A DNA stretch of 22,374 nt from a virus. Both the position numbers and the translations under genes were made by a program. The notes below the pieces were generated by a model. That model saw only the letters and a list, made by a program, of their open reading frames with translations, did no database searches and had not been told where the DNA came from. Shown one piece after another: positions 168 to 22,211 of the stretch. Location of the stretch: positions 1-22,374 of the IMG/VR virus record IMGVR_UViG_3300025652_007479; one strand, 5' to 3'. Positions within the stretch are counted from its first letter, which is position 1. Each line of letters starts with the position of its first letter.

Positions 168-187
168 TAATCATAATGAGAAATAAA

Positions 188-6108: not shown

Positions 6109-7076
6109 CTGTAGTGACAGGATGTGCTGGATTTATAGGCACTACATTTACTAGACTTTTACTAGAAAAAGGCTGGTTAGTATATGGTATAGATAAATTT
6201 ACTTATGCGGCTAATGAGCAAGAAATGCAATGGCTACTAAATACATATTCAGATAACTATATAGTAATAAAAAATGATATTAAAGATATAGATAGACTTC
6301 CTGAATGTGATGTAGTGTTTAATTTAGCAGCAGAATCTGATGTAGACAATAGTATTTTAAATGTAGATAAGTTTATTGATTCTAATATTTCAGGAGTAAA
6401 AAACTTATTAGAAATTATAACTCATAAAAGTGTACAAATAAAACATAATAAACCATTGTTTTTTCAAGTGTCAACTGATGAAGTATATGGAGATAGGACT
6501 GATGGAAGTTTTGATGAAACAGATGCATTAATGCCTAGTAATCCATATGCCGCTACTAAAGCTGCTGCCGACATGCTTATAGAGAGTTGGTCTAGAACTC
6601 ATGGATTAGACTATATAATTGCTAGACCTTCTAATAATTATGGTGAGAATCAATATCCAGAAAAGTTAATACCTACAGCAGTTAGATGCTTACAACGCGG
6701 TAAAAAAATTAAATTACATGATAGAGGAAAACCTATAAGATCCTGGACTCATGTAGAAGATACTGCAGAAGCATTTATTTTACTATATGAAAAAGCATGT
6801 AGAAATAATATTTATAATATACAATCAGACTATGAACAAACTAATTTTGTAACTGTTACAAAAATTATAAATACCTATTTTATAGGTACTATAAATGCAG
6901 AAATACCAGATTATAATGAGCATATAGATTATAGTTATGATAGACCCGGACAAGACGTAAGATATTCAATATCATGTGAATCTATTAAAAACTATGGTTG
7001 GACTCCTAAAAAAGTTTTTGATAAAGAAATTGTTAAGCTAGTTGACTATTATAAAAAAAGAAAGTGGAAATGGTAA
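6093..7076 (+). CDS. rmlB: dTDP-glucose 4,6-dehydratase-like extended SDR
   Basis: This is an extended short-chain dehydrogenase, 327 residues. The NAD-binding loop is GCAGFIG (10-16). Active-site residues Thr128-Asp129-Glu130 in STDEVYG, plus Tyr152 and Lys156 in YAATK, match the RmlB T-D-E/YxxxK set that oxidises C4, removes water and reduces C6. RPSNNYGENQYPEKLIP and PIRSWTHVEDTAEA are characteristic RmlB segments. The likely product is a nucleotide-4-keto-6-deoxyhexose, a substrate for the aminotransferase encoded immediately upstream. The nucleotide base (dTDP, UDP or GDP) is not certain, so the symbol denotes similarity only. The gene overlaps its upstream neighbour by 16 bases and shares a TAATG junction with the next one. 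Confidence 0.85.
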   Translation: MHKRIAVVTGCAGFIGTTFTRLLLEKGWLVYGIDKFTYAANEQEMQWLLNTYSDNYIVIKNDIKDIDRLPECDVVFNLAAESDVDNSILNVDKFIDSNISGVKNLLEIITHKSVQIKHNKPLFFQVSTDEVYGDRTDGSFDETDALMPSNPYAATKAAADMLIESWSRTHGLDYIIARPSNNYGENQYPEKLIPTAVRCLQRGKKIKLHDRGKPIRSWTHVEDTAEAFILLYEKACRNNIYNIQSDYEQTNFVTVTKIINTYFIGTINAEIPDYNEHIDYSYDRPGQDVRYSISCESIKNYGWTPKKVFDKEIVKLVDYYKKRKWKW

Positions 7077-8086
7077 TGAGAGTTTTTATTACAGGAATTA
7101 GTGGACTATTAGGCAGTACGATGGCTAGGTATTTAATTATGCAAGGTGATGAAGTAGTAGGTATTGATAATATGATTGGAGGCGTAGAAGGTAATGTACC
7201 AGACCATCCAAAATGTGAGTATCATAGAGGAGATATACTAGATACAGAATTTATGAAAACAATTATGGCAGATTGTGATGTAGTATTTCATACAGCTTCT
7301 CTTCCTTATGAAGGTTTAAGTGTGTTTTCTCCTACAGTAACTGCTACTAGTATAGTATCTGGTACTATTAGTACCGCTATTGCAGCACTACATAATAAAG
7401 TAAGATTATTTATAAACTGTTCCTCTATGGCTAGATATGGTGACCAAGTACCTCCTTTTACAGAAGATATGCCTACAAAACCTGTAGATCCATACGGATT
7501 AGCTAAAGTACAAGCAGAAGAACACTTACAGATGTTAAGCGAAATACACGGACTAAACTATGTAACAGTAGTGCCTCATAATGTTATAGGTGTGGGACAA
7601 AGATATTATGATCCTTTTAGAAATGTTGTAGGAATAATGATTAATAGAGCCGCACAAACTAAAAATCTTATTATATACGGGGACGGAGAACAAAAACGTT
7701 CTTTTTCTGATGTAAGGGATTGTATTATTGCAGTAGAAAGAATTATGAAAAGTGATCGTAAAGAGTTATGTGGACAGGTATACAATATTGGGCCAGATGA
7801 CAATGAAATATCTATTATACAATTAGCTACGTTAATTACACAACTTTCAGAAGTTTACGTAAAATTTGATCATTATCCCGATAGACCTAGAGAAGTAAAA
7901 GATGCTTATTGTTCTAGTGATAAAATTAGAAAAGAGTTTAATTATAATGCAGCTACACCAGCTAAACAAACTATTCAAGATATGGTAAACTGGATTAGAC
8001 CTATTACTCGTGAGTTTGAATACCATCTACCTGTAGAACTAGTTACAGAACAAACTCCTAAAACATGGACGGATAAACTAATCTAA
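7076..8086 (+). CDS. NAD-dependent sugar-nucleotide epimerase/dehydratase (extended SDR)
   Basis: A 336-residue extended SDR. It starts MRVFITGISGLLG with a GxxGxxG dinucleotide-binding loop at residues 7-13, acidic D31 after the second strand, Ser116/117 in NCSSMARYGD and the catalytic YxxxK as Y140-K144 in DPYGLAKVQAE. GDGEQKRSFSDVRD is the conserved substrate-binding segment of GalE-like enzymes. It lacks the TDE triad of the neighbouring dehydratase, so an epimerase or reductase is more likely than a second dehydratase. A GTG at 7064 extends the frame by four codons, but the ATG at 7076 has GGA at 7066-7068 at good spacing and forms a TAATG overlap with the previous stop. Confidence 0.82.
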   Translation: MRVFITGISGLLGSTMARYLIMQGDEVVGIDNMIGGVEGNVPDHPKCEYHRGDILDTEFMKTIMADCDVVFHTASLPYEGLSVFSPTVTATSIVSGTISTAIAALHNKVRLFINCSSMARYGDQVPPFTEDMPTKPVDPYGLAKVQAEEHLQMLSEIHGLNYVTVVPHNVIGVGQRYYDPFRNVVGIMINRAAQTKNLIIYGDGEQKRSFSDVRDCIIAVERIMKSDRKELCGQVYNIGPDDNEISIIQLATLITQLSEVYVKFDHYPDRPREVKDAYCSSDKIRKEFNYNAATPAKQTIQDMVNWIRPITREFEYHLPVELVTEQTPKTWTDKLI

Positions 8087-8301
8087 TGAGTAAGATTCAA
8101 GAAAAAATAACAGTATTTATGGATAAGTTACAAAATATGATGGAAAACAATATTCATCTAACAGACTTTCCTGCAGTAGTTACTGTTCATATGCAAGCAT
8201 CACTATATAGATCACATATGAATGATGAAGACAAAGATTATTATGATGCAGTTCAGTGGTGGTTAGAAGAATATCCTGAAAAGAGTTGGAATGTACAGTA
8301 G
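8086..8301 (+). CDS. Small hypothetical protein
   Basis: A 71-residue protein that I do not recognise. It is acidic and mostly helical in appearance (KIQEKITVFMDKLQNMMENN), with a Trp/Tyr-rich C-terminal third (DYYDAVQWWLEEYPEKSW). There is no signal peptide or membrane segment. Its reality is supported by a TAATG junction with the upstream epimerase gene, an 11-base overlap with the next small gene and codon use like the neighbours. No function is proposed. Confidence 0.6.
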   Translation: MSKIQEKITVFMDKLQNMMENNIHLTDFPAVVTVHMQASLYRSHMNDEDKDYYDAVQWWLEEYPEKSWNVQ

Positions 8302-8515
8302 TGATTGTTGGCAATGTAAGTATGTTTGTTGGGCTATAGGGGCAGGGCAAGGAGTTCTATGCTTTCATCCAGAAAATCAAAAGTATAACCCAAAACCTCG
8401 CAAATATGTAGCACCAGGAGAAGAAGATAACTATTTGGTAAATAAAGCAACAATTGTAAGATACATACCAGATGGTTGTACTTTTAGAGAAGAAAGAGTA
8501 AAAGATGGCAGTTAA
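8291..8515 (+). CDS. Small cysteine-rich hypothetical protein
   Basis: The 74-residue product has a compact N-terminal motif, CWQCKYVCW (Cys6, Cys9, Cys13), followed by CFH (Cys24, His26). This spacing could form a zinc or iron site, but it matches no family I can name. The remainder is polar and basic (NPKPRKY, TFREERVKDG). It overlaps its upstream and downstream neighbours by 11 bases each, which supports expression as part of the operon. Function unknown; a metal-binding small regulator or accessory protein is only a guess. Confidence 0.58.
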   Translation: MYSSDCWQCKYVCWAIGAGQGVLCFHPENQKYNPKPRKYVAPGEEDNYLVNKATIVRYIPDGCTFREERVKDGS

Positions 8516-9245
8516 AATAATTACACCTTATGTGTATGATAATGAGATAGCAGAACATAAAGATAAGTTTTGGGATCTTGATATACATTACGAAAAAGAT
8601 ACCGCTGGAATCGGCTCTGATTTAATGTATCAAAAAATGTGGAATCAGTTTCCTGAACATGATATTTTTATACTTCATGCAGATATGCACCCATTTAAAG
8701 ATGGATGGTGGGAAGAAATGTTAGAATATGTTGATAAGTATCCAGAAGCAGGAATGTTGGGTTTACTATTATTATACCCTGCACAGAATGATAATTATGA
8801 GCATTATATACAGTGCGCTGGTGGACAATTTACAGATGGAAAACCAGACCATTTTGGTAGTGGTTTAGTACTTGAAAATAAATCACAATTTAAACAAGAT
8901 TTAGAAGTTGATGATGGAAGATACTTAACAGTAAGAGAAGTTGCTTGGACTACATTTGGAGGATGTTATCTCAGACGAAGTTTTCTAGACACTGTAGGAG
9001 ATTTTAGCCCAGAATATGAATGGACTTATAACAGAGATGTTGATTATTGTTTAAAAGCCAGAGAAGCCGGAGAACGCATCTATCAAATACCTGTTAGACT
9101 TTTACACCATGAATCAAGAGATAATAAAAGAATAAAAGATCAGTCTAAAGCTGATATGGAAAGTAGAAACTTACAAACATTACTGGCGAAATGGGCAAAT
9201 TCAAAATTTTATAAAACGCTGGACAAAGAGATAAAAAGTGGATAA
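8505..9245 (+). CDS. GT2-family-like glycosyltransferase
   Basis: The 246-residue protein shows the GT-A fold order of family 2 enzymes. IFILHADMHPFKDGWWEEM (54-72) holds the donor or metal site around Asp60. VAWTTFGGCYLRRSFLDTVG is the acceptor-site region, and RDVDYCLKAREAGERI (177-192) is the classical ED/DxDxxLRxxxxG segment. LLHHES (199-204) supplies the late His that often completes metal binding. No membrane segments are seen, so it is a soluble enzyme using cytoplasmic nucleotide sugars. A purine-rich stretch (AGAGAAGAAAGAG) lies just before the ATG. Family call good; linkage and sugar unknown. Confidence 0.82.
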   Translation: MAVKIITPYVYDNEIAEHKDKFWDLDIHYEKDTAGIGSDLMYQKMWNQFPEHDIFILHADMHPFKDGWWEEMLEYVDKYPEAGMLGLLLLYPAQNDNYEHYIQCAGGQFTDGKPDHFGSGLVLENKSQFKQDLEVDDGRYLTVREVAWTTFGGCYLRRSFLDTVGDFSPEYEWTYNRDVDYCLKAREAGERIYQIPVRLLHHESRDNKRIKDQSKADMESRNLQTLLAKWANSKFYKTLDKEIKSG

Positions 9246-9474
9246 AGTATATATAACGAAACAAGAAATGTACGATGGCATTGAGAAAGAAGCTAAAAAA
9301 TTGAAATCAGGCGATAATGGCCCTATATTAACTGTATTATTATGGATATGGATTATGTGGGCCTTAGTATTTTTAGTTATACCTGCTTTTATATCATTAG
9401 TATTGGTAGTGGTAGTATACGCACCGTTCTATTTTGTAGATAAAAAAATTATTAAAAGGAGAAATAATGGCTAA
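9238..9474 (+). CDS. Small membrane protein
   Basis: A 78-residue protein with a polar N-terminal helix (about 1-28), two closely spaced hydrophobic segments (about 29-48 and 50-67, turning around a Pro at 49) and a basic tail KKIIKRRNNG. This predicts a hairpin in the inner membrane with both ends in the cytoplasm. I do not recognise a family. It begins with GTG at 9238, with AGAG at 9227-9230 at good spacing; an ATG at 9268 would give a shorter version lacking a clear ribosome-binding site. It overlaps the glycosyltransferase before it by 8 bases and the next gene by 8. A holin-like or membrane-anchor role is possible but unsupported. Confidence 0.6.
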   Translation: MDKVYITKQEMYDGIEKEAKKLKSGDNGPILTVLLWIWIMWALVFLVIPAFISLVLVVVVYAPFYFVDKKIIKRRNNG

Positions 9475-10228
9475 GTTAAATAAAACGTGGGTACAAGCAG
9501 CATTAGAGTTATCACAAGTAGATAAAGACAAGCTTGATTGGTGGCACAAAAAAATTCCAGGAGCGTCCTCTAATAGATTAAGAGGCTTTATTAATAATCT
9601 ATGTGGAGCTGATAATGTAAATTATCTTGAAATAGGTGTTTATAAAGGTTCAACAATAATTGCAGCAGTAACTAATAACCCTAAAACAAAAGCTTGGGGT
9701 ATAGAAAATTCTAGCTATGACTTTAGACAAACTTTTCCTGATCAAATACCAGAAGGATCTCCTTGCTGGCCTTCTATGATACGTGATTTGAATGAAAATC
9801 TAAAAAAATGGAGCACTCATTTAAATTACGTACCTGATGCTATAACTATTATAGAAGATTCTTTTCAAAATGTAGATTATAGCAAACTTCCAACATTTAA
9901 TGTATGTTATTTAGATATAGAAAAATTAAATCCTGTTATATATGATGAGTTTTTTACTACAGTGTACCCAAAGCTTGATAAAGAGTGTGTTTTGATAGTA
10001 TCAGGAGTTACAAATCCTATATTTATGGAAGAACTAAATAAAGCTCTACTAAGACATGATGAAAGTTTTACTATAGATTATGAATTTTTAAAAGTTAGTG
10101 GAGCAGGTTCAGATAGTAGAAATTACTGGAACGGAATTAGAATACTAGGATTAAAAAGAAAAGTAAAAGCAGTAGTTAAAGCAATAGTAACTAAAAAACC
10201 GGCACCTAAACCCACTAAAGAGGCATAA
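9467..10228 (+). CDS. Methyltransferase-fold protein (Methyltransf_24-like), possibly divergent
   Basis: The 253-residue product has a clear SAM-type motif I, NYLEIGVYKGSTI (52-64), followed by AWGIENS at the end of the second strand. The equivalent of the DGDH motif reads YLDIEKLN (around Asp150), and the usual HD pair is replaced by SGVTNP, so catalytic residues seen in relatives are altered. The C-terminal tail is rich in Lys, Pro and Ala (KKPAPKPTKEA) and looks unstructured. AAAGGAGA at 9455-9462 is one of the best ribosome-binding sites in the cluster. It may be a sugar or glycan methyltransferase, or a non-catalytic relative. Confidence 0.62.
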   Translation: MAKLNKTWVQAALELSQVDKDKLDWWHKKIPGASSNRLRGFINNLCGADNVNYLEIGVYKGSTIIAAVTNNPKTKAWGIENSSYDFRQTFPDQIPEGSPCWPSMIRDLNENLKKWSTHLNYVPDAITIIEDSFQNVDYSKLPTFNVCYLDIEKLNPVIYDEFFTTVYPKLDKECVLIVSGVTNPIFMEELNKALLRHDESFTIDYEFLKVSGAGSDSRNYWNGIRILGLKRKVKAVVKAIVTKKPAPKPTKEA

Positions 10229-11059
10229 ATGAAAAAGAAATCAGTAATAAGTTTAGTAAGCTATGATGCAGCTTATTTACCAGAAAGTATATCTAAATAT
10301 TATAATTATGTAGATGAAATTGTTTTAGGTCTTGATAAGAATAGAACTACATGGAGTGGTAATAGTTTTTCTTTTGATGAAAAACAATTATGGGCAGATT
10401 TAAGTGCTATTGATGGAGATTCTAAAATTTCTATTATAGAAGAAGATTTTGTAAAAAGTAAAATAGCTATTGAAAATGATAATTATGAAAGAAACTTTCT
10501 TAAAGCACAATGCACAAATGATTGGATTTTTAGTATAGACGCAGATGAGTATCTAGTTAATCCAAAAGATTTTTTCTATAATTATTGTCCTCTTATAGAA
10601 CGCTACTATAATAAAGCAGATATTTGTATGACCTGGGCAACCCCGTATAAAACTATTGGAGATGCTACACTAGTAATTGCAGATGAAGATGGAACTCCTT
10701 TTTTTGGGGAGAATCAAGGTATGACTACTTCTAAAGATAGTACTTTTACGTACGCTAGATGGACTGACAAAAGTGCTGCAGGACATAATAGATTAATGTC
10801 GCCTCTTGTAGCTATTCATTGGAGTCTATGTAGAGATAAAGATGCACTACATGAAAAAATTAATAATATTGGACATTCAGACTTAGTTGAAAATGATCCT
10901 TTTTATCAGATTTGGAATCAAGTTACATTAGAAAATTACGAAGAACTACATAACTTTAAGTCTTCAGGACTTGGAACAGCACAGTGGCCTATTCTCAGAG
11001 CTATAAAAACAGAACAAGTAGCAGATTATATAGAACAACACTTAAGTAAGGCATATTAA
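10229..11059 (+). CDS. Glycosyltransferase, GT-A fold (GT2-like)
   Basis: A 276-residue protein beginning with a strand (KKKSVISLVSYDAAYLPESI) that fits the N-terminal edge of GT2-like enzymes. The key site is WIFSIDADEYLV (99-110), with Asp104-Ala-Asp106-Glu107 as the DxD metal site. This is typical of the subgroup that carries a D-x-D-E-(F/Y) signature and often appears in capsule and LPS loci. His residues in AIHWSLCRDKD may take part in catalysis. The ATG follows the previous stop directly (TAAATG) and is preceded by AGAGG. Donor and acceptor unknown. Confidence 0.74.
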   Translation: MKKKSVISLVSYDAAYLPESISKYYNYVDEIVLGLDKNRTTWSGNSFSFDEKQLWADLSAIDGDSKISIIEEDFVKSKIAIENDNYERNFLKAQCTNDWIFSIDADEYLVNPKDFFYNYCPLIERYYNKADICMTWATPYKTIGDATLVIADEDGTPFFGENQGMTTSKDSTFTYARWTDKSAAGHNRLMSPLVAIHWSLCRDKDALHEKINNIGHSDLVENDPFYQIWNQVTLENYEELHNFKSSGLGTAQWPILRAIKTEQVADYIEQHLSKAY

Positions 11060-11060
11060 T

Positions 11061-12224
11061 ATGATAATTGACTTTGTAGGAAAATTTTATGATAACCATT
11101 CACTTTCGATTATCAATAGAAATATAGTAACTAAACTAGCAGAAGCACATCCTGATTGGAAAATATCTATTACTCCATTAGATTCTTATGATCCTGAATA
11201 TAAATTAGATAAGAATATAGTTAAACAGTTAAAGACTCTAGAGCAAGCAGAAACAGGTGAGCCTAATATACAAGTACGACATTCTTATCCTCCTATATGG
11301 CAATGGCCTGCTAGTGATAGAACTAAGATTATATTTATCCAACCTTGGGAATATTTAAAAGCACCTTTTGAGTGGCAGTATAAATTTGAAACCTTTGCAG
11401 ATGCTTTAATTGTACCAAGTAAATATATAGCTGATGTATTTAGAGGGGCAGGACTCAAACCTGATAATTTATTTGTAGTACCTAATGGGTATAATGAAGA
11501 TTTGTTTAATACAGATGAAGAAAATTCAGAAAGTAGATATATAGATAAAGATAAATTTAATTTTGTGTATGTAGGAAATTCTCAATGGAGAAAAGGATTA
11601 GATATACTTATGAACTCTTGGAAAGAGTGCTTTAAAAAATTTGATAAGGCAACTTTAACTATTAAAGATAATCCTAAGATTTATGGGCAAAGTAATGTAC
11701 TAAATGAAATTATAAAAATGCAGTATAAAACAGGATGCTCAGACGTACAATATATTGATGAAGATTTATCAGATAAAGAAATGGCAGCTTTGTTTAAAGC
11801 ATCTGATATTTTAGTACATCCTTATAGAGCTGAAGGATTTGGTATGCATGTACAAGAAGCAATGGCTTGTGGCTGTATACCTGTAGTATCTGATGGTGGT
11901 CCTACAGATGATTTTGTATCTCATGAAAATGGGTTTAGATTGCCTACAGAACGTAAATCTATGAATATAGCAGATCCAAATGTATTTGCTATGAAATCAG
12001 GAGATGCTATGACAGGAATGAGTACTCATACTTTTTACAATGAACCTAACGTACAAGCACTAACAAATGGTCTTAAAATGATTTATCATTCCCATAATAA
12101 AGAAGAAGAAATTTACAATAAAAGAAACAATATGAATATGGTAAATACTTGGAAAAAAGTAACAGAAGACTATGTTAAAGTACTTGAAGAAGTTAGTAAT
12201 AGAACAGATATTGTTAGATATTGA
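11061..12224 (+). CDS. GT4-family glycosyltransferase (GT-B fold)
   Basis: At 387 residues this has the normal length of a GT-B glycosyltransferase. VPNGYNEDLF (140-149) is the conserved linker before the C-terminal domain. FVYVGNSQWRKGLDILMNSW (168-187) is the typical start of the nucleotide-sugar-binding domain. HPYRAEGFGMHVQEAMACG contains the EX7E motif as Glu258 and Glu266, which contacts the donor, followed by IPVVSDGGPTDD. It is a retaining transferase using a nucleotide sugar in the cytoplasm. It is the last gene of the sugar cluster: after its stop there is a 44-base gap with promoter-like sequence. Confidence 0.9.
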   Translation: MIIDFVGKFYDNHSLSIINRNIVTKLAEAHPDWKISITPLDSYDPEYKLDKNIVKQLKTLEQAETGEPNIQVRHSYPPIWQWPASDRTKIIFIQPWEYLKAPFEWQYKFETFADALIVPSKYIADVFRGAGLKPDNLFVVPNGYNEDLFNTDEENSESRYIDKDKFNFVYVGNSQWRKGLDILMNSWKECFKKFDKATLTIKDNPKIYGQSNVLNEIIKMQYKTGCSDVQYIDEDLSDKEMAALFKASDILVHPYRAEGFGMHVQEAMACGCIPVVSDGGPTDDFVSHENGFRLPTERKSMNIADPNVFAMKSGDAMTGMSTHTFYNEPNVQALTNGLKMIYHSHNKEEEIYNKRNNMNMVNTWKKVTEDYVKVLEEVSNRTDIVRY

Positions 12225-12268: not shown

Positions 12269-12769
12269 ATGGATGATTTAGATGAGTTTTTTGCAAATCT
12301 AGAAAGCGACATGAAAAATAGCAAACTAGAAAGTGCTGCAACCTCAGAAAAAACAAGTTTAGACCGTAAAATTATTGATGATTTTCATGGCAACGTGCCT
12401 ATTTTTAACGAAGAAGTTACTGGACAATTACCTACTATTACTAAAAAAGCACAAATATATATTAGTGATGTTTTAGAAAAAGGACAATACTTTAGATTTG
12501 CAGTAGATGGAGGTGGTTGTTCTGGATTTAACTATGCTTTTGATGTAGAAACACATCCTAGAGATAATGATATACAATTTTCAGACAGTCCTCCTGCTAT
12601 AATTGATGACGTAAGTATAAAATATTTATATGGAAGTATAATTGACTTAGATACATCCAGCTTAAGTAAGCAACTGGTAGTAGATAATCCAGGTGCTAAA
12701 GCAAGTTGTGGCTGTGGAACCAGTTTTGCATTTGATGAAGCAATGTTATTAGAGGCAGGGATACAATGA
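12269..12769 (+). CDS. A-type iron-sulfur cluster carrier (IscA/ErpA/HesB-like)
   Basis: The C-terminal about 110 residues form an A-type carrier, which holds and delivers Fe-S clusters or iron. The three ligand cysteines are present: Cys84 in DGGGCSGFNYAF, and Cys147 and Cys149 in ASCGCGTSFAF, exactly the family pattern C-x(n)-C-x-C. Residues 1-55 are an acidic, low-complexity N-terminal extension (DDLDEFFANLESDMKNS) not found in the roughly 107-residue bacterial IscA. The gene follows its own promoter-like gap and the strongest local ribosome-binding site, and overlaps a Fe(II)-dependent oxygenase gene by 4 bases. It could sustain host or phage Fe-S enzymes during infection (inference). Confidence 0.93.
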   Translation: MDDLDEFFANLESDMKNSKLESAATSEKTSLDRKIIDDFHGNVPIFNEEVTGQLPTITKKAQIYISDVLEKGQYFRFAVDGGGCSGFNYAFDVETHPRDNDIQFSDSPPAIIDDVSIKYLYGSIIDLDTSSLSKQLVVDNPGAKASCGCGTSFAFDEAMLLEAGIQ

Positions 12770-13398
12770 AGTATAAAGAAATAGTAACTGAAAGTGGTTT
12801 ACCTTGGTTAGGACTTGATATAGATATACCTCATGAAAAAATGTTACAAGAAGCTGTAGATCTTAAAGATGAATTTGTTAAACATAGAGATGAAGATAAT
12901 GGTGGAGGTTATAGGCATAAAGGATGGAGAAGTTTATGTATACATGGAATAGATCCATATAAAACTAATCATTATGAGCAATATGGTTATAAATCAAATA
13001 ATGAAACTCCTTACACTTGGACAGATATATGTGCACGATGTCCTATAACTAATGAATTTTTTAAATATTATTTTCCATATGATGTATATTATAGAGTAAG
13101 ATTTATGTTACTAGAGCCACAAGGGTATATTACTCCACATAAAGACTCTCAAGAACATAGATTATCACCTGTTAATATAGCACTGAATAATCCTGAAGGT
13201 TGTAATTTTAAAATGAAAGGTCATAAAGGATATTTACCTTTTGCTCCTGGAAAATCACTATTACTAGATGTAGGTAATACACACGCAGTATATAATAACA
13301 GTGATGAAGATAGATACCATATAATAGTACATGGTAAAATAACAAAAGAATTTAAAGAGTTGGTAGAGCGTAGTTATGCGAAAAATGGGCCTCAATAA
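12766..13398 (+). CDS. Aspartyl/asparaginyl beta-hydroxylase-like Fe(II)/2OG oxygenase
   Basis: The 210-residue protein carries the double-stranded beta-helix core of the AspH-like oxygenases. RVRFMLLEPQGYITPHKDSQ gives H125-x-D127, the second half LLLDVGNTHAVYNNSDEDR gives H173 as the third iron ligand, and Arg183 is placed to bind 2-oxoglutarate. PVNIALNNPEGCNF is the typical intervening strand. The substrate could be a protein side chain or a free small molecule. It is ATGA-linked to the Fe-S carrier gene upstream and overlaps the next gene by 23 bases, so the three appear co-translated. Confidence 0.84.
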   Translation: MKYKEIVTESGLPWLGLDIDIPHEKMLQEAVDLKDEFVKHRDEDNGGGYRHKGWRSLCIHGIDPYKTNHYEQYGYKSNNETPYTWTDICARCPITNEFFKYYFPYDVYYRVRFMLLEPQGYITPHKDSQEHRLSPVNIALNNPEGCNFKMKGHKGYLPFAPGKSLLLDVGNTHAVYNNSDEDRYHIIVHGKITKEFKELVERSYAKNGPQ

Positions 13399-14749
13399 AA
13401 ACTATGTAGTAGCAATATTTGATGATCCAAAATTTGCATCTAGAAATATGACTATACAAGAAAAACGTAAAGAAATTACAGAATTTTTTACAAGATTCAA
13501 ATATTTTGGACCTATAATTTATGGCAAATCAGTTAATGATGTATTAGACAAAGCACTAGAGCATGATGTAGAATACTGTATAGTACAGGCAGTAGGTCAT
13601 ATTGTTAGAGATGGTTCATTTTTTAAAATTATAGAAAAATGGATGAGTAAAAAGAACTTCTTTGTTACAGGGCATATTATGGACAAAGAAACTCCAAATA
13701 GTAATTGGTCAGAAGGCAATGGTTATTATGGATTACATAAACAGTGTATTTTAGTTAATTTAAATTACTATAAAAAGTTTGATAAACCTGTGTGGGGAGA
13801 AGCTAAACATAAGTTAGATAAACCAGAACATTTAGCTGCTGCTAATAGACATGCTAAAGATATACATGATGACTATACTCCACTAGCAGTTATGCCTACA
13901 GAAGAAACTAAAGTATGTACCCCTCTAGTAGATGGTTGGAACTTTATAAATACAAGTTTAGAAAATGGTTTAACTGTTTATAATTTTCATCCAAAGATTC
14001 GTGATGCGAAAGAATTTGTTTATCCTACTAGTAGTATTGAAGATCTACAGACTCAGTTATCATGGGTTAATAATATAGTAAACTATGCACCTCAATGTGT
14101 ATTTTTATGGAATACAGAGACATATTTAGATTTAAAATACTGTAAAATACAAGAACCAGTTAGGCACTTATATACATTAGCAGCTAGTTTCAAACCACAT
14201 ATTATATTAAATACCTTTAATTTTGAAGATGATGCAATTGTTAATTTTTATGACTATAGTAAACCTGCACTAGCTTATAAAAAAATGATGTTAAAACAGT
14301 GGAATGGTGAAGATTATCCTGCATTTATAAATTGGGCTAGAAAAAAATATCAATTTAATGAAACACACGGAACTCTAACAGAGCATGAAACAGATGATTT
14401 CCTATGGCAAAGAGAAATATCTTGGTGGGGTAGTGAAGATACTATAAAAGAACACTGGAAACGGTATAAAAATCTAAAACATACATGGACTCATGTAGAT
14501 ATATCAAAAGACTGTACGCCCATAACTAATAAAATAATTAATGAACCAGGTAGTGTAATATGGTGGAGTAATGCTTTCCATACTGTAAATGCTCATTATC
14601 TTCATGGGTTAAAAGGTGTTACCGCTAGTTACAAAACTTGGATAGATGAAATTACTAAACAGAATCCTAATATATGGATTTTAGGAAAAGACTTTTTAGA
14701 TAGACCTGTAGAAGGAGGTCAGATAAAAGATTATGTTATTAAAAGCTAA
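13376..14749 (+). CDS. Conserved-looking protein of unknown function (457 residues)
   Basis: I do not recognise a family with confidence. The first 170 residues (YVVAIFDDPKFA, VEYCIVQAVGHIVRDGSFF, NFFVTGHIMDK, YYGLHKQCILVNLNYYKKF) alternate strands and helices in a way that vaguely recalls a GT-A nucleotide-sugar domain, but no DxD is evident. The C-terminal half is rich in aromatic residues (WWGSEDTIKEHW, GSVIWWSNAFHTVNAHYLHG). There is no signal peptide or membrane span. It sits between two Fe(II)/2OG oxygenase genes and overlaps both (23 and 17 bases), suggesting a joint pathway. The start could also be the ATG at 13385. Confidence 0.75.
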   Translation: MRKMGLNKNYVVAIFDDPKFASRNMTIQEKRKEITEFFTRFKYFGPIIYGKSVNDVLDKALEHDVEYCIVQAVGHIVRDGSFFKIIEKWMSKKNFFVTGHIMDKETPNSNWSEGNGYYGLHKQCILVNLNYYKKFDKPVWGEAKHKLDKPEHLAAANRHAKDIHDDYTPLAVMPTEETKVCTPLVDGWNFINTSLENGLTVYNFHPKIRDAKEFVYPTSSIEDLQTQLSWVNNIVNYAPQCVFLWNTETYLDLKYCKIQEPVRHLYTLAASFKPHIILNTFNFEDDAIVNFYDYSKPALAYKKMMLKQWNGEDYPAFINWARKKYQFNETHGTLTEHETDDFLWQREISWWGSEDTIKEHWKRYKNLKHTWTHVDISKDCTPITNKIINEPGSVIWWSNAFHTVNAHYLHGLKGVTASYKTWIDEITKQNPNIWILGKDFLDRPVEGGQIKDYVIKS

Positions 14750-15329
14750 AACAAGGCTAGAGTTTGATAATAGTTGGGTAAAGCAATTAAAATTTGTAGA
14801 ACACACAGACCAAGATTTGGCAGGTCATGTAGACGCTATATCAATAAAAAGTGAATCAGGAAGTGTATTTGATTTTTATAGATCTAATCCTTTAGAGAAT
14901 CCTGATGATTTTAAATATACAGCTTTATATCATAAAATACCTCAAGTTAAAAAATTAACAGATTATTTTCAGCTACAAACTACCAGAGTGCGTATACATA
15001 GGCAACTTCCGGGTCAAGAAATACCGCTACATACTGATGGCAATAATACAGCAGTAAAAGATAAAAATGATTATATGATAAGAAGTATTACAGCTCTTAC
15101 TGCAAGTAAAGATTTTAGATATAACTTTATAGATACAGAAAATAAACATAGAGTTCAATGGCTAAGACAGGGAGAAACTATGTTTTTTGACCCTGATTTA
15201 ATAGCTCATGGCATGTTAAATGAGTCAAAAACAGAAACTAGATATGCATTGGTACAGATATTTAAGTTATACCCAGTAACAGACTGGGCAAGAGATTTTA
15301 TAAGTACCAAAAAAGTAGTAAAAATATGA
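14733..15329 (+). CDS. Fe(II)/2OG oxygenase, AspH-like
   Basis: The 198-residue product has the diagnostic iron-binding residues of the cupin-fold oxygenases: H100-x-D102 in GQEIPLHTDGNN, H159 in PDLIAHGMLNES, and R170 in TETRYALVQIF as the likely 2OG anchor. TRVRIHRQLPGQ just before the HxD matches the corresponding strand in the proteins at 12766-13398 (YRVRFMLLEPQG) and 19744-20409 (TRVHIQQPGQ), so the three form a paralogous set. A strong AAGGAGGT lies at 14712-14719, 13 bases before the ATG, which is a long spacing. The substrate is unknown. Confidence 0.82.
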   Translation: MLLKAKTRLEFDNSWVKQLKFVEHTDQDLAGHVDAISIKSESGSVFDFYRSNPLENPDDFKYTALYHKIPQVKKLTDYFQLQTTRVRIHRQLPGQEIPLHTDGNNTAVKDKNDYMIRSITALTASKDFRYNFIDTENKHRVQWLRQGETMFFDPDLIAHGMLNESKTETRYALVQIFKLYPVTDWARDFISTKKVVKI

Positions 15330-15613: not shown

Positions 15614-15911
15614 AGCTTGGAATGATGAACAAGAAGCTGAATTAACTAGGCTTTATCTTGAGGAAGAAATTAAAGATGTACATGAATTAGCATCTATATT
15701 TGAAAAGGGTTATAGAAGTGTTATAAGTAAATTAGTACAACTTAAAATATATGAAAAACCTGAATTAGATGAAGAAGATAAGTCATTAACTGTAAAAGTT
15801 ATGTTGAGAGAGCTAGAAGAGATTTTAGGTGTAGAAGTGGTAGGAACTAATTTAAATAAAAAAGAAAATTTAAGTAAGTTACTTGAGTCTATCAAAAAGA
15901 AGATTGGCTAA
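15603..15911 (+). CDS. Small HTH-like protein, putative regulator
   Basis: A 102-residue protein. Residues 1-50 (KAWNDEQEAELTRLYLEEE, then DVHELASIFEKGYRSVISKLVQL) have the helix pattern of a SANT/Myb- or homeodomain-like helix-turn-helix: a W at the first helix start, a turn and a recognition helix with YRSVISKL. The remainder is a basic/acidic helical segment ending KLLESIKKKIG. A TTG frame extends upstream to 15582, but the ATG at 15603 has GGAG at 15592-15595 with 7-base spacing and starts at the domain. DNA binding and a regulatory role are inferred from fold only. Confidence 0.68.
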   Translation: MSIKAWNDEQEAELTRLYLEEEIKDVHELASIFEKGYRSVISKLVQLKIYEKPELDEEDKSLTVKVMLRELEEILGVEVVGTNLNKKENLSKLLESIKKKIG

Positions 15912-16438
15912 TGGGAACACTTAAACCAGGTGTTGGATTAGTATATGAACGAGTAGATGGTGTCGTATATGGCAGATACCAAGGAACAACAGATAGATGG
16001 GAAATAGGAAGAGATATGAGACCAATATCACCAAATGATATAAGACCGGAACCACAAACAATTGGTTGGGACTCTGCTGCCGGACATGGTCATAACCAAT
16101 ACACAAAAGAAGAGATTGAAGCATTAGGTATTAAAGTGGTAGAAGAACAAGTTATTCCTGAGCAAACTAACATATATAAGTTTAGTGAAGATAAACTAAT
16201 AGAAGAGTTTACAGACTATATTGATAGTACTTATGCAGCACATTATAATACTAATAAAATTCAATCTATGGAAAATATTATAGATAAAGGTCATGGTACT
16301 GGATTCTGTATGGGAAATGTAGATAAGTATGCAAGTAGATATTTAAATAAAGGTACGAGAGAAGATGCTCGTAAAGATCTAATGAAGGTGTTACACTACA
16401 CACTTCTTCAATTACATATACATGATAATAATTTATAA
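15911..16438 (+). CDS. DUF3310-like phage protein
   Basis: The C-terminal half (about residues 90-170) resembles the DUF3310 domain found in many phages: helix DKLIEEFTDYIDSTY, the turn GTGFCMGNVDKYASRYLNKG and the helix REDARKDLMKVLHYTLL, following the family's GNVxKYxxRYxxKxGxxDLxKAxxYL pattern. The N-terminal 75 residues form a separate beta-rich segment (GVGLVYERVDGVVYGRYQG). The domain's role is undefined; a nucleotide-metabolism link has been suggested for relatives. It starts in a TAATG junction with the HTH-like gene. Confidence 0.72.
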   Translation: MGTLKPGVGLVYERVDGVVYGRYQGTTDRWEIGRDMRPISPNDIRPEPQTIGWDSAAGHGHNQYTKEEIEALGIKVVEEQVIPEQTNIYKFSEDKLIEEFTDYIDSTYAAHYNTNKIQSMENIIDKGHGTGFCMGNVDKYASRYLNKGTREDARKDLMKVLHYTLLQLHIHDNNL

Positions 16439-16447
16439 GGACTAATC

Positions 16448-16759
16448 ATGAAGTATATCGTAGATATTGACGGCACTATCTGTCATGCACATCAATTACC
16501 CAGTGGCAAATGGGACTATGAAAATCATGTACCAATTATGGGTCGTATTTTTAGAATAAATAGACTATATGATGAGGGACATACTATTAAATATATGACT
16601 GCTCGAGGAGCAGTTAGTGGTATTGATTATTATGAAATGACTAAAAGTCAATTAGATAGTTGGGGTTGTAAATATCACGAATTGTCAGTTGGTGAGAAAG
16701 AACATTACGATATCTGGGTAGATGATAAAGCTCACAACTCGGAAGAATTTTTCAAATGA
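16448..16759 (+). CDS. HAD-superfamily phosphatase-like protein
   Basis: A 103-residue minimal HAD fold. Motif I is VDIDGTIC with nucleophile Asp6 and acid/base Asp8; motif II is the Thr of MTARG (Thr51); motif III is Lys84 in VGEKEHYD; motif IV is WVDDKAHN (Asp92, Asp93). All catalytic positions are present despite the missing cap domain. Small cap-less HADs of this type occur in phages and polysaccharide loci and usually hydrolyse sugar or nucleotide phosphates; the substrate is unknown. TAAGGA lies about 7 bases before the ATG, and the end is ATGA-linked to the next gene. Confidence 0.83.
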   Translation: MKYIVDIDGTICHAHQLPSGKWDYENHVPIMGRIFRINRLYDEGHTIKYMTARGAVSGIDYYEMTKSQLDSWGCKYHELSVGEKEHYDIWVDDKAHNSEEFFK

Positions 16760-17244
16760 CAACTAGTATGAGATGGTTTGCTAATCAGTGGCAGACTCAA
16801 GAAGTTGACGAAACTGTAGTTAATAGGGTCTTAGCAGCTAAAAATGTATTAGATATTGGTTGTGGGCATAATCCTTATAAAAAATTTGCTACAGGTAAAT
16901 TTACAGGAATTGATGTTTATATTGATACAGCTGATGAACATATGGATTTTCTAAACTTTAGGACACAAGAAAAGTATGACCTCATAATTGCTTATGGGGT
17001 TTTTCACTTTCATAGTTTAGATTTAATAGATATACAGATTAAAAAAGCTATGAAACTGCTTACTCCAGATGGTGTTCTATGCATGAAAGTAAACCCTAAC
17101 TGTCCTAACTTTGACGGTTCTATACTACCTTGGTACAATAAATGGACTAAATCTCTTGCTTATCATTATGGAGAAGTGTATAATAAAAAAGTTACAAATA
17201 TGAGAGAAAGTACTCGTGGGAGATTTAAATGGGAATATGAATAG
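16756..17244 (+). CDS. Class I SAM-dependent methyltransferase
   Basis: The 162-residue protein contains motif I NVLDIGCGHNPY (30-41), acidic Asp52 at the end of the second strand (GIDVYID), motif II/III KYDLIIAYGVFHFHS and motif post-II MKLLTPDGVLCMKVNP. This is the standard class I Rossmann methyltransferase order, slightly shorter than usual because the C-terminal sheet is trimmed. The acceptor could be a small molecule, protein or nucleic acid. ATGA overlap with the HAD gene upstream; the transporter gene starts directly after its stop. Confidence 0.85.
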   Translation: MTTSMRWFANQWQTQEVDETVVNRVLAAKNVLDIGCGHNPYKKFATGKFTGIDVYIDTADEHMDFLNFRTQEKYDLIIAYGVFHFHSLDLIDIQIKKAMKLLTPDGVLCMKVNPNCPNFDGSILPWYNKWTKSLAYHYGEVYNKKVTNMRESTRGRFKWEYE

Positions 17245-18684
17245 ATGCCAGAAATTCTAGCACTATTATCAGGAACTTTTTATGGACTACTAATAGGCAT
17301 AATTCCTGGAGCAGGCGCTACTACTGGTCTTATTTTTCTATTTAGCTTTATTACACTATTTCCAGATCCATATCTAGCTGTTATTTTTGTTATGGCAGTA
17401 GTTGCTGCCAGTACTACAGGAGATACATATACAGGAGTCTTATTAGGTATTCCTGGTGCAAACTCCGCAGCTGCTACTATGCTTGATGGTTTTCCCTTAG
17501 CACTACAAGGTAAAGCTACCTATGCTATTAGTGCTGCTGTTATAACATCTACTATAAATGGTTTACTTTGGGGATCACTTACTTTCTTTTTATTACCTTG
17601 GTATACTAATTTAATACTAATATTCGGAGTTCCTGAGTTATGGGCTTTTACTATGTTAGCACTAGCTACAGTAACCTTCATAAGTAATAAATGGTGGGTC
17701 AGAGGATTAATGGCGCTTGCTGCAGGAATCTTTATCGGTATGATAGGAGTTGATCCTAATACTAATTTAGATAGATGGACCGGTGGCTGGGAATATCTAG
17801 GAGCTGGAGTACAATTACTTCCAATGATAGCGGGTTTATTTGCTATTCCTGAACTTATTGATGGACTAGCTAGAAGAAGAAATACTGCTGATTCTACTAT
17901 ATCAAATGGTAGACAGACACTAGATGGTATAAAAGCTGTATGGGATAACAGATGGTTAGCTCTACGTGGAGGTTGTATAGGCGCTTTTATAGGAGTACTT
18001 CCTGGTCTAGGTGGTGCAATGGCAGACTGGATGGCTTACGGTCAAGCAGTAGCTACTACTAAAAATCCAGATGTTCCCTTTGGTAAAGGTAATATAAGAG
18101 GAGTTATCGGGCCAGAAGGTGCTAATAATGCACAAAAAGCTACCTCAATGATTCCTACAGTGCTATTCGGAATCCCTGGTGCTCCTTTTGCGGCAATTAT
18201 TATTGGATTGTTTGCATATTTAGATTTTGAACTGGGTACTGTTGATTTAGCAATGGATACCAAGTTTTTTGATAGTATGCTGTTTGGATTTATGATGGCT
18301 ACTATACTTGTAGCTATATTGTGTATACTTTTAACTAAGTATATAGCTAAAATTGCTAATGTACCTTATAAATATTATTTTCCGTTACTATTAGCTTTTA
18401 TAGTACTTGCTTGTGTTCAGTATACAGGAGGATGGGAAGACTATGCTATACTCATAGTTTGCTCCTTAATAGGTATATTAGCTAAAAAATTCAAGTTCTC
18501 AAGACCTGCATTATTATTTGGTTTTATACTTGCAGAAAGAATTGAAGCACTGAGTATACAAATGTATGGTATGTATACTTTTGATAGGTTATTAACAAGA
18601 CCTATATTCTGGACACTGATCGGTGTTATTTTTATTATATTGGTTTGGGGATTATCCAAACGTAACAAGTTAGAATATGCGTAA
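17245..18684 (+). CDS. tctA: Tripartite tricarboxylate transporter large membrane subunit TctA
   Basis: TctA is the sodium- or proton-coupled permease of TTT systems, in the inner membrane. The 479 residues form about ten to twelve hydrophobic segments. The two family repeats are visible: GIIPGAGATTGLIF (18-31) with GVLLGIPGANSAAATMLDG, and GVLPGLGGAMADWMAYGQA with VLFGIPGAPFAAIIIG. The N-terminus appears about 20-30 residues shorter than typical TctA, so the first hydrophobic segment begins almost at the start Met. No small TctB subunit is encoded next to it. The ATG directly follows the previous stop. An unusual cargo for a phage; the family call is very strong. Confidence 0.95.
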   Translation: MPEILALLSGTFYGLLIGIIPGAGATTGLIFLFSFITLFPDPYLAVIFVMAVVAASTTGDTYTGVLLGIPGANSAAATMLDGFPLALQGKATYAISAAVITSTINGLLWGSLTFFLLPWYTNLILIFGVPELWAFTMLALATVTFISNKWWVRGLMALAAGIFIGMIGVDPNTNLDRWTGGWEYLGAGVQLLPMIAGLFAIPELIDGLARRRNTADSTISNGRQTLDGIKAVWDNRWLALRGGCIGAFIGVLPGLGGAMADWMAYGQAVATTKNPDVPFGKGNIRGVIGPEGANNAQKATSMIPTVLFGIPGAPFAAIIIGLFAYLDFELGTVDLAMDTKFFDSMLFGFMMATILVAILCILLTKYIAKIANVPYKYYFPLLLAFIVLACVQYTGGWEDYAILIVCSLIGILAKKFKFSRPALLFGFILAERIEALSIQMYGMYTFDRLLTRPIFWTLIGVIFIILVWGLSKRNKLEYA

Positions 18685-18697
18685 AAAAGGAATATTA

Positions 18698-19744
18698 ATG
18701 AAACGCTTACTATTATCTGTAGCAGCTGCTACTATGCTAGCTACATCTGCTATAGCAGACTATACTTTTGTAGTACCCCAAAGAGCGGGTCAAGGCACTA
18801 CCGTGTGGGCGGAAATTATTGCAAAAGAACTAGAACCTTTTCTAGGAGAGTCTATTACTATTAAAATGTTGCCAGGAGCTAGAGACATTCCTGGATTTAA
18901 TGAATGGCATAATGAAATGCGTGATGATGATAAAACTGTCATGGTATCTCACGGAGGAAATGGTGTATCATTTCTACAAGAAAATGTAGATTATGATTAT
19001 CGTGAATACGATAGTGTAGGTATGATGAATCTAAATATCATTGCAGGAAAACGTAAAGGTGAAAATATGGATAAACCTTATTTTCCTGCAGGATCTGGTA
19101 TGGTTCCCGAAGCATTTGCTATTGCACTAATGATTTGTGGCCCTGATAAGTCAGTAGAAGAGTATATTGCTTGCTTTAAAGAAAATGTAACATGGGTTAA
19201 AGGTATGAAAACTGCGGAACGTAGATTAGCCTTTAAACGTGGGGAACTGACAGGGACTCGCGAGAATCCTGCAACATATAAAAAACATGTGGAGCCTGAT
19301 GAAAACGCCGAACTCTGGTTTCATCATGGATTGCTACAACCTGATGGGTCACACGCAGATGACACAAACTATCCAGCAGGTTATCAAGTAGAACAAATAT
19401 TTGAAGCACGATGGGGAGTAGCACCTAGTGGAGAGTTCTATGATACTTATAAGTTAGTTAAATCGTTTCGTGACGGTCTACAAAAAGCTCTTTGGGTAAA
19501 TAAAGATAATCCTAATAGAGATAAACTTGCAGCCGCGCTAACAGCTATGAGTAAAGATCCTGATGCAATCGCAGCATTGATTAGAAAAAATGGTGATTAT
19601 GATTGGTATATTGGAGAAGCAGGAGATGCACAACGTGATAAACTATTAACTTTTGTAACTGCTAGCACTTTACAGAATCTAGTTAAGTTTAATAGTGAAG
19701 CTTTAGGATTAGCTAGTGTTTATAAAGAAGGCTTGGTAGACTAA
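18698..19744 (+). CDS. tctC: TctC/Bug-like periplasmic substrate-binding protein
   Basis: It begins with a clear Sec signal peptide, MKRLLLSVAAATMLATSAIA, with cleavage expected before DYTF. The mature N-terminus YTFVVPQRAGQGTTVWAEII, then KELEPFLGESITIKMLPGARD, follows the TctC/Bug pattern VPFPAGGxTDxxAR..LGxxVVVENxPGA, with Gln-Gly in place of the usual GG. The rest is divergent from known Bug proteins. I chose the ATG at 18698, preceded by AAGGA, over one at 18677 that would add seven residues before the signal peptide. It directly follows tctA, so the pair probably forms a transporter. Ligand not predictable; citrate, other di/tricarboxylates or 2-oxoglutarate are candidates. G+C is higher here (26 of 60 at 19261-19320). 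Confidence 0.8.
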   Translation: MKRLLLSVAAATMLATSAIADYTFVVPQRAGQGTTVWAEIIAKELEPFLGESITIKMLPGARDIPGFNEWHNEMRDDDKTVMVSHGGNGVSFLQENVDYDYREYDSVGMMNLNIIAGKRKGENMDKPYFPAGSGMVPEAFAIALMICGPDKSVEEYIACFKENVTWVKGMKTAERRLAFKRGELTGTRENPATYKKHVEPDENAELWFHHGLLQPDGSHADDTNYPAGYQVEQIFEARWGVAPSGEFYDTYKLVKSFRDGLQKALWVNKDNPNRDKLAAALTAMSKDPDAIAALIRKNGDYDWYIGEAGDAQRDKLLTFVTASTLQNLVKFNSEALGLASVYKEGLVD

Positions 19745-20409
19745 TGGAAAGTAGTTGGGATAAATTAGTACCTAGAACAAGTTATCATTTTGATCCCTTC
19801 AAAATAGACCCAGCATATGACGCAATGCGCTATGCTGGGTGTTTTACTGGTGACTGGAGTGAGGAACTTGCACAAACTATTAAAAGTAGTGAGGAAATCA
19901 CTTGGAGAAATAGAAATCCAAAGGATGGCACCAGCAAAGACATAGAATCTGAAGAATATGACCTCGTAAGAAGTGGTGCAGATGTAGATTTAGTTTTAAC
20001 TAACCTAGAGTATGATTTACTACCAGTATTTCAACGTATGACAGATGCTCTAGAATTAACCTCTGTAGATAAAAAAGAACTACAAACTCGTGTTCACATT
20101 CAACAGCCTGGACAGGTATGGAATTTACACATAGATAAACTTGAAAAATTTAATAAAACTGATCCCCATAGTGTATATAGATTTATGGTTATGTTAAATG
20201 ATTGGGAGCCAGGCCACTTTATTCAATATGGTAACTTTGTGCATACAGGTTATCGTGCAGGAGAAATATATAGTTTTGATTGGTATAATGTACCTCATTG
20301 TACAGCTAATGCAGGTCTTGGTCCCAGATGTACACTACTAGTAACAGGTGTAGCTACAGATAAAACACTTAAACTATTTAGTACATACAATAATAAAATA
20401 AATGTATAA
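19744..20409 (+). CDS. Fe(II)/2OG oxygenase, AspH-like
   Basis: The 221-residue product shows the triad H129-x-D131 in GQVWNLHIDKLEKF, H185 in DWYNVPHCTANAG and R195 in GPRCTLLVTGVA for 2-oxoglutarate. The strand TRVHIQQPGQ before the HxD is shared with the paralogue at 14733-15329. The N-terminal part (WDKLVPRTSYHFDPFKI) is not recognisable. It overlaps the TctC-like gene by one base (TAATG), hinting at co-expression with the transporter. A link between imported substrate and oxygenase is possible but unproven. Confidence 0.83.
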   Translation: MESSWDKLVPRTSYHFDPFKIDPAYDAMRYAGCFTGDWSEELAQTIKSSEEITWRNRNPKDGTSKDIESEEYDLVRSGADVDLVLTNLEYDLLPVFQRMTDALELTSVDKKELQTRVHIQQPGQVWNLHIDKLEKFNKTDPHSVYRFMVMLNDWEPGHFIQYGNFVHTGYRAGEIYSFDWYNVPHCTANAGLGPRCTLLVTGVATDKTLKLFSTYNNKINV

Positions 20410-20471: not shown

Positions 20472-22211
20472 ATGATATATAAAGAACTTAAAACACTTAT
20501 TCAAAAACATAGTAAACTGTACTATGACGACTATGCTCCTGAGATTACAGATGCAGAGTTTGATCAACTGTATGACAAGCTAGAAGCTATGGAATCCGCT
20601 CAAGGCTGGCGTGATCATGATTCTCCTACTTTCCGCGTAGGTGGGAAGGCAGGCAAAGTAACTCATCCCTATCCTTTATACTCATTGCGTAAAGTATATG
20701 ATATAGACGAAGTTGATGCGTTTATGGATGTTAGACTCCCTAAAATTGATGGTACTAATCTTAGTTTAATTTATACTAATGGTAAATTATCTCTTGCTGT
20801 CACTCGCGGTAATGGTGAGCGTGGAGAAGATGTTACACATCTTGCAGGCGCTATTTCTAATATACCTACACGTATAGATACTCATTTAGATGAAGTAGTG
20901 ATTAACGGTGAATGTGTAACTAATAACGAAGTAGATAACTTTAGAAATTATGTTAGTGGTGCGCTCGGTCTTAAATCTGCTAAAGAGTTTGCAGAACGTA
21001 ACATTATATTTATTGCTCATGACTGGCTAGGCACAGAAATGAATTATAAAGCCCGTATGAATATTGTAAAAAATATGGGATTCTTCACAGTTCTAGAAGA
21101 TGATGCATGGACCTATCCTATGGATGGTGTAGTATATCGTGCTGATTCATATGCTAAATCTGTAAGGCTAGGTTACACATCTAAGTTTCCTAAATTTGCA
21201 GTAGCACTCAAAGAACGTGAAACAGAAACAGCTATTACTACTCTACAAGATGTATTATGGGTAGTAGGTAGAACTGGCACAGTAAATCCTACAGCAGTTG
21301 TTGATCCTGTGGTATTGGAAGATGCTACAATTTCTAGAGTTACCTTACATAATTTAGGTATTATCGAAGAACATAATCTTGGATTGGGCGACATGATCCA
21401 GATTGAACGTGCTGGCGGTGTTATACCTAAGTTTCTTCGTGTAATCGAACACTCTAAGCATGGTATTAAGATAACTAAAAATCATGCAGAAACTACCATT
21501 GGTATGGATACAAAGTTAGATGGTCCTAGGTTAATGGTTGCTGATAAGAGTAATATAAATTCATCAAAAGTTTTAGAACATTTTATTAAGACTCTTGATA
21601 TTAAAGGATTAGGTCCAGCTTCTGTAAAGAAAATGGGACTAACACATCCAGTAGATCTTTTCGAAGATCAAAACTGGAATCTACTTGGTGTCAATGGTGC
21701 CAAGGTTCAAGCTGAGATAGAAAGAACAAAAACCAAACCTTATGATCTTGTTCTAGCATCTCTTGGAATGACAGGGGTAGGTAAACGTGCTTCTAAGTTA
21801 ATTATTAGTAAGATACCTGCTTTTAGAAATCTAAGAGATATTGAAACTACAGATATTAAAGGTATTGGTCCTTCGACAATAGAATCGGTACTGTCGTGGC
21901 TTGATGAAAATGAAGAGTGGGTATTAACCTTACCTCTACAACTCGAACAGAATGTGACAGTTGAAGAAGTAGTCGGAACCCCTGCTCGTAAAATCTGTAT
22001 TACGGGAAAGTTAGATATGACTCGTAATCAGTTAGGCGATATTCTAGAAAAACTTGGATTCAAAGTAACTAACACTGTGACTAAAGATTGTTATGCTTTG
22101 ATAACCGGCGGAGATACTACATCTTCTAAATATAAAAAAGCTAATACAATGGGAATATCTGTAATCGACTATTGGTCAAGTAAAAAAGATGTGTTATCTG
22201 GTGATTTCTAA
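20472..22211 (+). CDS. ligA: NAD-dependent DNA ligase lacking the zinc finger
   Basis: It seals nicks in DNA using NAD+. Domains in order: Ia (about 1-50, ELKTLIQKHSKLYY..PEITDAEFD) that binds NMN; adenylation domain with nucleophile Lys91 in LPKIDGTNLS, TRGNGERGED and NGEC; an OB-like region (VVGRTGTVNPTAVVDPV, TLHN, IERAGGVIPK); helix-hairpin-helix region (LDIKGLGPASVKK, GVGKRASKL, IKGIGPSTI); and C-terminal BRCT (RKICITGKLDMTRNQLG). It is 579 residues against about 670 in bacteria. The four-cysteine zinc finger is missing: only three Cys occur in the entire protein, none in pairs. The lesion-binding role of the finger may be replaced by phage proteins. Confidence 0.94.
   Translation: MIYKELKTLIQKHSKLYYDDYAPEITDAEFDQLYDKLEAMESAQGWRDHDSPTFRVGGKAGKVTHPYPLYSLRKVYDIDEVDAFMDVRLPKIDGTNLSLIYTNGKLSLAVTRGNGERGEDVTHLAGAISNIPTRIDTHLDEVVINGECVTNNEVDNFRNYVSGALGLKSAKEFAERNIIFIAHDWLGTEMNYKARMNIVKNMGFFTVLEDDAWTYPMDGVVYRADSYAKSVRLGYTSKFPKFAVALKERETETAITTLQDVLWVVGRTGTVNPTAVVDPVVLEDATISRVTLHNLGIIEEHNLGLGDMIQIERAGGVIPKFLRVIEHSKHGIKITKNHAETTIGMDTKLDGPRLMVADKSNINSSKVLEHFIKTLDIKGLGPASVKKMGLTHPVDLFEDQNWNLLGVNGAKVQAEIERTKTKPYDLVLASLGMTGVGKRASKLIISKIPAFRNLRDIETTDIKGIGPSTIESVLSWLDENEEWVLTLPLQLEQNVTVEEVVGTPARKICITGKLDMTRNQLGDILEKLGFKVTNTVTKDCYALITGGDTTSSKYKKANTMGISVIDYWSSKKDVLSGDF

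Follow-up and report, generated by a model that had tools for sequence, protein, structure and literature searches.

Does a phage equip the bacteria it infects with an organic-acid importer made of only two parts? The tripartite tricarboxylate transporter (TTT) family and its three parts have been reviewed in PMC5812351, where the function of TctB is stated as unknown. The window analyzed here, 22,374 bases long, spans an entire IMG/VR viral record, which is a fragment. In it, the initial annotation described a TctA gene and a TctC-like gene, without TctB, inside a phage-like gene array. Our analysis indicates that a trimmed organic-acid pump is probably installed in infected cells by ocean phages. 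More specifically, we favor, with a probability of about two-thirds, a virus-adapted, TctB-less, two-part TTT importer that would bring a C6 tricarboxylate into the host TCA cycle and 2-oxoglutarate to phage oxygenases. The pair and its neighbors are as follows.

15911..16438, + strand: DUF3310 protein, a viral context marker (phrog_480, 1.4e-26; PF11753, 1.9e-8)
16756..17244, + strand: SAM-dependent methyltransferase-like protein (weak Pfam matches to Methyltransf_12/23/31, best 7.7e-05, below cut-off)
17245..18684, + strand: TctA permease, 479 aa (PF01970, 4.5e-97)
18677..19744, + strand: TctC-type periplasmic solute-binding protein, 355 aa, of a divergent virus family (signal peptide, fold, and BugD profile match)
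19744..20409, + strand: probable Fe(II)/2-oxoglutarate-dependent oxygenase (conserved residues and a weak AtsK match)
20472..22211, + strand: phage-type NAD-dependent DNA ligase, a viral context marker (phrog_3869, 9.7e-118)

All interpreted genes in the window share one direction, and the array holding TctA and TctC is overlapping and translation-coupled. The stop of the methyltransferase-like gene (17244) and the start of TctA (17245) occupy adjacent bases, TctA and TctC share 8 nt (ATGCGTAA), and TctC overlaps the next gene by 1 nt (TAATG). Neighbor counts in related viral loci showed that a homologue of the methyltransferase-like gene precedes TctA in 65 loci, as defined by cluster c0, a mixture of methyltransferase and P-loop/sulfotransferase-like genes. 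A homologue of the 19744..20409 gene was found directly after TctC in 31 loci. In an 18-member alignment, the latter family has the invariant residues H129-x-D131 ... H185 ... R195, and its profile weakly matched the 2-oxoglutarate dioxygenase AtsK (0.005). Based on this residue pattern and the AtsK match, we read the gene as an Fe(II)/2-oxoglutarate oxygenase.

Several other features of the window were recorded. Four separate predicted Fe(II)/2-oxoglutarate oxygenase-type genes are present within 22 kb (3616-4338, 12766-13398, 14733-15329, and 19744-20409). The first matched PhyH, while the second and third were Asp/Arg hydroxylase-like, the match at 14733 lying below the curated cut-off. Genes of the surface-sugar type are packed into positions 176-12224, encoding a WbqC-like protein, a DegT/DnrJ/EryC1 aminotransferase, two epimerase/dehydratases, a hexapeptide protein, and glycosyltransferases. 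A protein with an A-type Fe-S biosynthesis domain (PF01521) and an N-terminal extension is encoded at 12269-12769, within the phage gene array.

The assignment of TctA at 17245-18684 was confirmed. The window protein covers 422 of the 423 positions of the PF01970 profile, and this full-length match, together with its placement among TctA proteins in the phylogeny described below, identifies it as the TctA subunit of the TTT family (TC 2.A.80). Its AlphaFold2 model (pLDDT 84) is that of a multi-helix membrane protein. A fold search with the model gave no PDB match below 1e-3, and no sequence relatives of TctA were found in the PDB.

The binding protein is more divergent. A Pfam search of the 355-aa protein, in which the TctC model was included, returned no match, and 40 viral homologues gave scattered insignificant matches only. 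However, a profile built from these 40 homologues matched BugD, a TctC protein (1.5e-5). The AlphaFold2 model (pLDDT 93.6) was searched against the PDB with Foldseek, and the best 17 fold matches all belonged to the TctC family (E 1.3e-9 to 4.6e-7), including BugD, Bug27, MatC with malate, TphC, and Rpa4515 with oxoadipate. The N-terminus was judged by eye to carry a classical signal peptide, MRKKGILMKRLLLSVAAATMLATSAIA/DYT. As the fold matches are all of the TctC type, the "TctC-like" label given to this signal-peptide-bearing protein at 18677-19744 was correct, the protein being a distant TctC. It is thus identified as a TctC subunit by its fold and the BugD profile match, and not by the Pfam TctC model.

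Like the characterized members of the TTT family, such as Salmonella TctABC and Bordetella BctCBA/Bug, the viral pair consists of a PF01970 TctA and a TctC-fold protein on one strand. It differs from them in being phage-borne, in having a TctC too divergent for Pfam, and in having no TctB gene or domain. The gene order also differs, being mostly A-C in the viral pair and C-B-A in the family.

The absence of TctB, which had been noticed in the window, held up in a wider search. No TctB was found among the ORFs of the 22 kb fragment, and the Pfam TctB model (PF07331) found none in 38 viral records. We rejected the Pfam model as sole proof of absence because it barely detects fused bacterial TctB domains and is too insensitive. 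A replacement profile was built from such fused domains. It matched 0 of 47 viral records, some of which are possibly incomplete, compared with 4 of 4 bacterial controls, two of which gave extra weaker matches. The same profile found nothing significant in 242 viral loci spanning 3.48 Mb. Judged from these sequence searches, TctB would be absent from the whole lineage and not just from the window contig. The pair had been described as a complete permease with its own binding protein; the two components are indeed present, but by the standard of the family the system is incomplete, as TctB is missing.

A three-part importer could still operate if something else replaced TctB, whether a small membrane protein of the c55 family, DUF6552 (cluster c6) in other viruses, or the TctB of the host. 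TctB diverges fast, so the role could fall to a host TctB or to a viral one that sequence searches do not recognise. The c55 family (L233-L249, for example L037:15190-15543) consists of proteins of 117 aa with four hydrophobic segments and no Pfam match, and sequence searches showed it to be unrelated to TctB. In all 10 c55 loci of at least 15 kb, the gene was found near the pair, within about 1.5 kb and with TctA within 10 kb, and this was the case in both gene orders. Across 102 loci, c55 (9 occurrences) and DUF6552 (31 occurrences) were never found together. The hydrophobic segments, the proximity, and this mutual exclusion favor a replacement, but the exclusion is possibly a chance or lineage effect, c55 is confined to a minority of the viruses with the pair, and neither c55 nor DUF6552 lies beside the pair in the window. 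DUF6552 was rejected as a general TctB substitute, since many viral loci with DUF6552 lack TctA (24 of 39 large ones). We therefore regard c55 as a candidate replacement for TctB in a minority of pair-bearing viruses, and a three-part importer as an unlikely explanation of the pair as a whole.

To place the viral proteins, 68 TctA domains were used for a maximum-likelihood tree. In it, every viral TctA sequence was grouped, together with those of two genome-derived loci (L121 and L122), in a single clade with support of 100/100 and a long stem of 1.75 changes per site. The sister of this clade (98/93; joint node 100/98) was found to be a group of longer bacterial proteins, and the two groups together stand apart from ordinary unfused TctA. 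The best identity between viral TctA and ordinary cellular TctA was 32-39%. This placement and the low identity argue for an old, diversified, virus-dominated lineage and against a recent capture.

The sister proteins were also reached from TctC. In wider genome searches, the viral TctC profile detected a related group of bacterial TctC proteins whose carriers belong to Proteobacteria and to the order that includes a Pelagibacter metagenome-assembled genome (MAG), and the TctA genes adjoining them encode 649-749 aa. Searched within a small set, the C-terminal extra ~170-200 residues of these TctA proteins matched stand-alone TctB (5e-12 to 9e-11), and the Pfam TctB model was matched over most of its length by one of them, at 0.0025, below the curated cut-off. 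The C-terminal matches identify the sister proteins as TctA-TctB fusions. Based on both the TctA tree and the TctC profile, the operons that encode them (L250-L267, from the Pelagibacter MAG order and other Proteobacteria) are the closest cellular relatives of the viral pair. They resemble it in that a binding protein of about 350-390 aa adjoins the permease, but they differ in the 649-749 aa length of TctA, in the catabolic genes alongside, and in a TctA identity of about 32-39%. The fusion trait is absent from viral TctA, which has 390-512 aa and ends at the point where the TctB domain starts in the sister proteins. Loss of the TctB domain and its never having been present are equally parsimonious, because the basal L135 is fused and an independent long form, L307, also exists.

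We searched ~85,000 species genomes for cellular copies. The viral TctC query found no close relative, and the viral TctA alignment found eight loci. Of these, L121 (WJMG01000074.1, an Omnitrophota MAG) and L122 (BQJD01000039.1, MAG B5-7) had TctA identities of 59% and 53%, respectively, and the remainder, L123 aside, about 28-30%. L121 and L122 each carry a TctB-less pair of the viral clade in apparently bacterial surroundings, and they could represent either phage-to-host transfer or a remnant of the lineage from which the viral genes came. L123 (CAJQJC010000036.1, a Pelagibacter MAG) was rejected as a host copy: its gene pair is ~91% identical to that of the viral contigs L100 and L101 and has the same neighbors. 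From this identity and the shared gene order, L123 is probably a phage contig binned with the Pelagibacter MAG, and its binning gives a weak hint at the host.

The pair is widespread among viruses and recurs in over a hundred marine virus fragments. Scans of viral contigs gave 70 loci with the TctA query and 52 with the TctC query, and using c6, c55, and a second TctA clade as queries added further loci. The 159 complete viral TctA ORFs, of 390-512 aa, include no fewer than 101 distinct sequences, which are nearly always next to a TctC of the family found in the window. Where both genes were present they were on one strand, in the order TctA-then-TctC in 129 loci and TctC-then-TctA in 38, which are not counts of viruses because the loci overlap. 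TctA only was found in nine loci, six of them contigs below 9 kb, and TctC only in ten. The second viral TctA clade (L268-L298) has the reversed order, with TctC before TctA, and occurs on contigs of up to 343 kb. One viral contig (L114:5931-11071) was found to carry two tandem TctA-TctC pairs, whose TctA proteins are 44-45% identical to that of the window; this suggests a duplication, with a possible change of ligand.

Among cultured phages, no phage with the pair was found in the searched collection. With tblastn, TctC gave no match and TctA gave only matches of 26.7-30.9%, mostly to unannotated gut or enteric records. Megablast of the whole window against phages returned no match.

We then examined selection on the two genes. 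Between related viral copies, dN/dS of TctA was 0.05-0.10, and the pairwise values for TctA and TctC among viral copies ranged from 0.05 to 0.19. These values reflect purifying selection, which means that both genes are maintained as functional. The pair is thus kept intact by selection, as expected of auxiliary metabolic genes. The same two proteins might instead modify the surface or envelope of the host, for example in superinfection exclusion or sensing, and not import a nutrient. Exclusion is a frequent use of phage membrane genes, and the window is otherwise rich in glycan and surface genes. However, both proteins are full length with conserved family motifs, and the permease and binding protein are kept paired across very different phages, as expected of a transporter; we consider a role in envelope modification very unlikely.

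The pair lies in bona fide viral genomes, as shown by the IMG/VR record of the window and by the hallmark genes of its relatives. The initial annotation had proposed to search viral contigs for the same pair beside phage structural genes, and two such loci were found. In L103, a T4-type terminase gene is located 1.2 kb upstream of TctA, and in L058 a tail sheath gene is located 1 kb downstream of TctC. The record containing the latter locus (G024) also carries gp23, and this major capsid gene was present in 8 of 38 TctA-bearing records, including contigs of 328, 300, and 204 kb. An origin of the contig as a bacterial island, or as host DNA contaminating the viral collection, is the least probable explanation and can be set aside: the window itself contains no recognised capsid or tail gene and L121 and L122 fall in the same clade, but related pairs adjoin terminase or tail sheath genes or share contigs with gp23, the window contains the phage-type DNA ligase and DUF3310 genes, no close relative of TctC was found in the ~85,000 genomes, and identity to ordinary cellular TctA reaches no more than 32-39%. 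The proposal that the pair is phage-encoded was thus borne out. Two outcomes had been named in advance as counting against it, shallow nesting in one bacterial genome and a bacterial island, and on both the evidence favors the viral reading.

To narrow down the ligand of the favored two-part importer, we analyzed the genes beside the bacterial fusion operons. A PrpF-family gene was found in 14 of 18 sister loci. Six of these genes were checked with NCBIfam, and in each the best match was 4-oxalomesaconate tautomerase, five being above the curated cut-off. The FAD-dependent tricarballylate dehydrogenase TcuA was found in two examined sister loci, and in one sister locus (L251) a ComA-like gene takes the place of PrpF. 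Neither PrpF/4-oxalomesaconate tautomerase nor TcuA was found in the viral loci. Because both sister-operon enzymes act on C6 tricarboxylates, such a compound is the most plausible candidate for the ligand of the viral pair. By analogy with these relatives, the ligand would most likely be a C6 tricarboxylate of the tricarballylate, aconitate, or 4-oxalomesaconate type, although this transfer by association is weak, given the remote similarity between the viral and sister binding proteins. The earlier suggestion of iron-citrate uptake found no specific support, as the relatives point to tricarballylate, aconitate, or 4-oxalomesaconate.

Taken as a two-part importer, the viral system may work in the following way. 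The signal peptide would export TctC to the host periplasm, where TctC would capture the carboxylate. TctA in the inner membrane would take it up by ion-coupled symport, functioning without TctB, whose C-terminal domain it either lost or never had. Host aconitase and isocitrate dehydrogenase would then turn the imported tricarboxylate into 2-oxoglutarate, and energy would be obtained via the TCA cycle. 2-Oxoglutarate would also serve as co-substrate for the phage Fe(II)/2-oxoglutarate oxygenases encoded nearby, a supply that is plausible with gene proximity as its sole basis. A stronger form of this reading, held at slightly less than even odds, is that the pair represents an old, nearly virus-only two-component TTT lineage that would import the tricarboxylate without any TctB and feed both the TCA cycle and the phage oxygenases.

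In the literature on viral TTT genes, we found only one report and a review citing it. According to the accessible text of these sources, a SUP05 viral contig gave a match to the tctA domain, listed as a putative auxiliary metabolic gene (PMC4164917, eLife 2014), and this was repeated in the review (PMC6359870). Compared with the pair in the window, the accessible text of the SUP05 report describes a domain hit only, with no mention of TctC, the absence of TctB, the clade, or its recurrence. Pelagimyophages (PMC7029224) resemble the window phage in being marine and T4-like and in carrying envelope-related auxiliary genes (curli/TSS VIII), but the text describing them mentions no tricarboxylate transporter. 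No description of a TctB-less viral TctA-TctC lineage was found in the searched literature, which covered few subscription journals and preprints, and within it the lineage appears to be undescribed.

If the two-part importer is real, infected marine bacteria could draw on organic acids for which their own genes may make no provision, and a phage-encoded importer would be a direct viral route to shaping carbon uptake in the sea. For the TTT family, a large, selected lineage of TctA and TctC without TctB makes the dispensability of TctB testable with two genes, and a two-component TTT system, if true, would offer a natural way to ask whether TctB is necessary.
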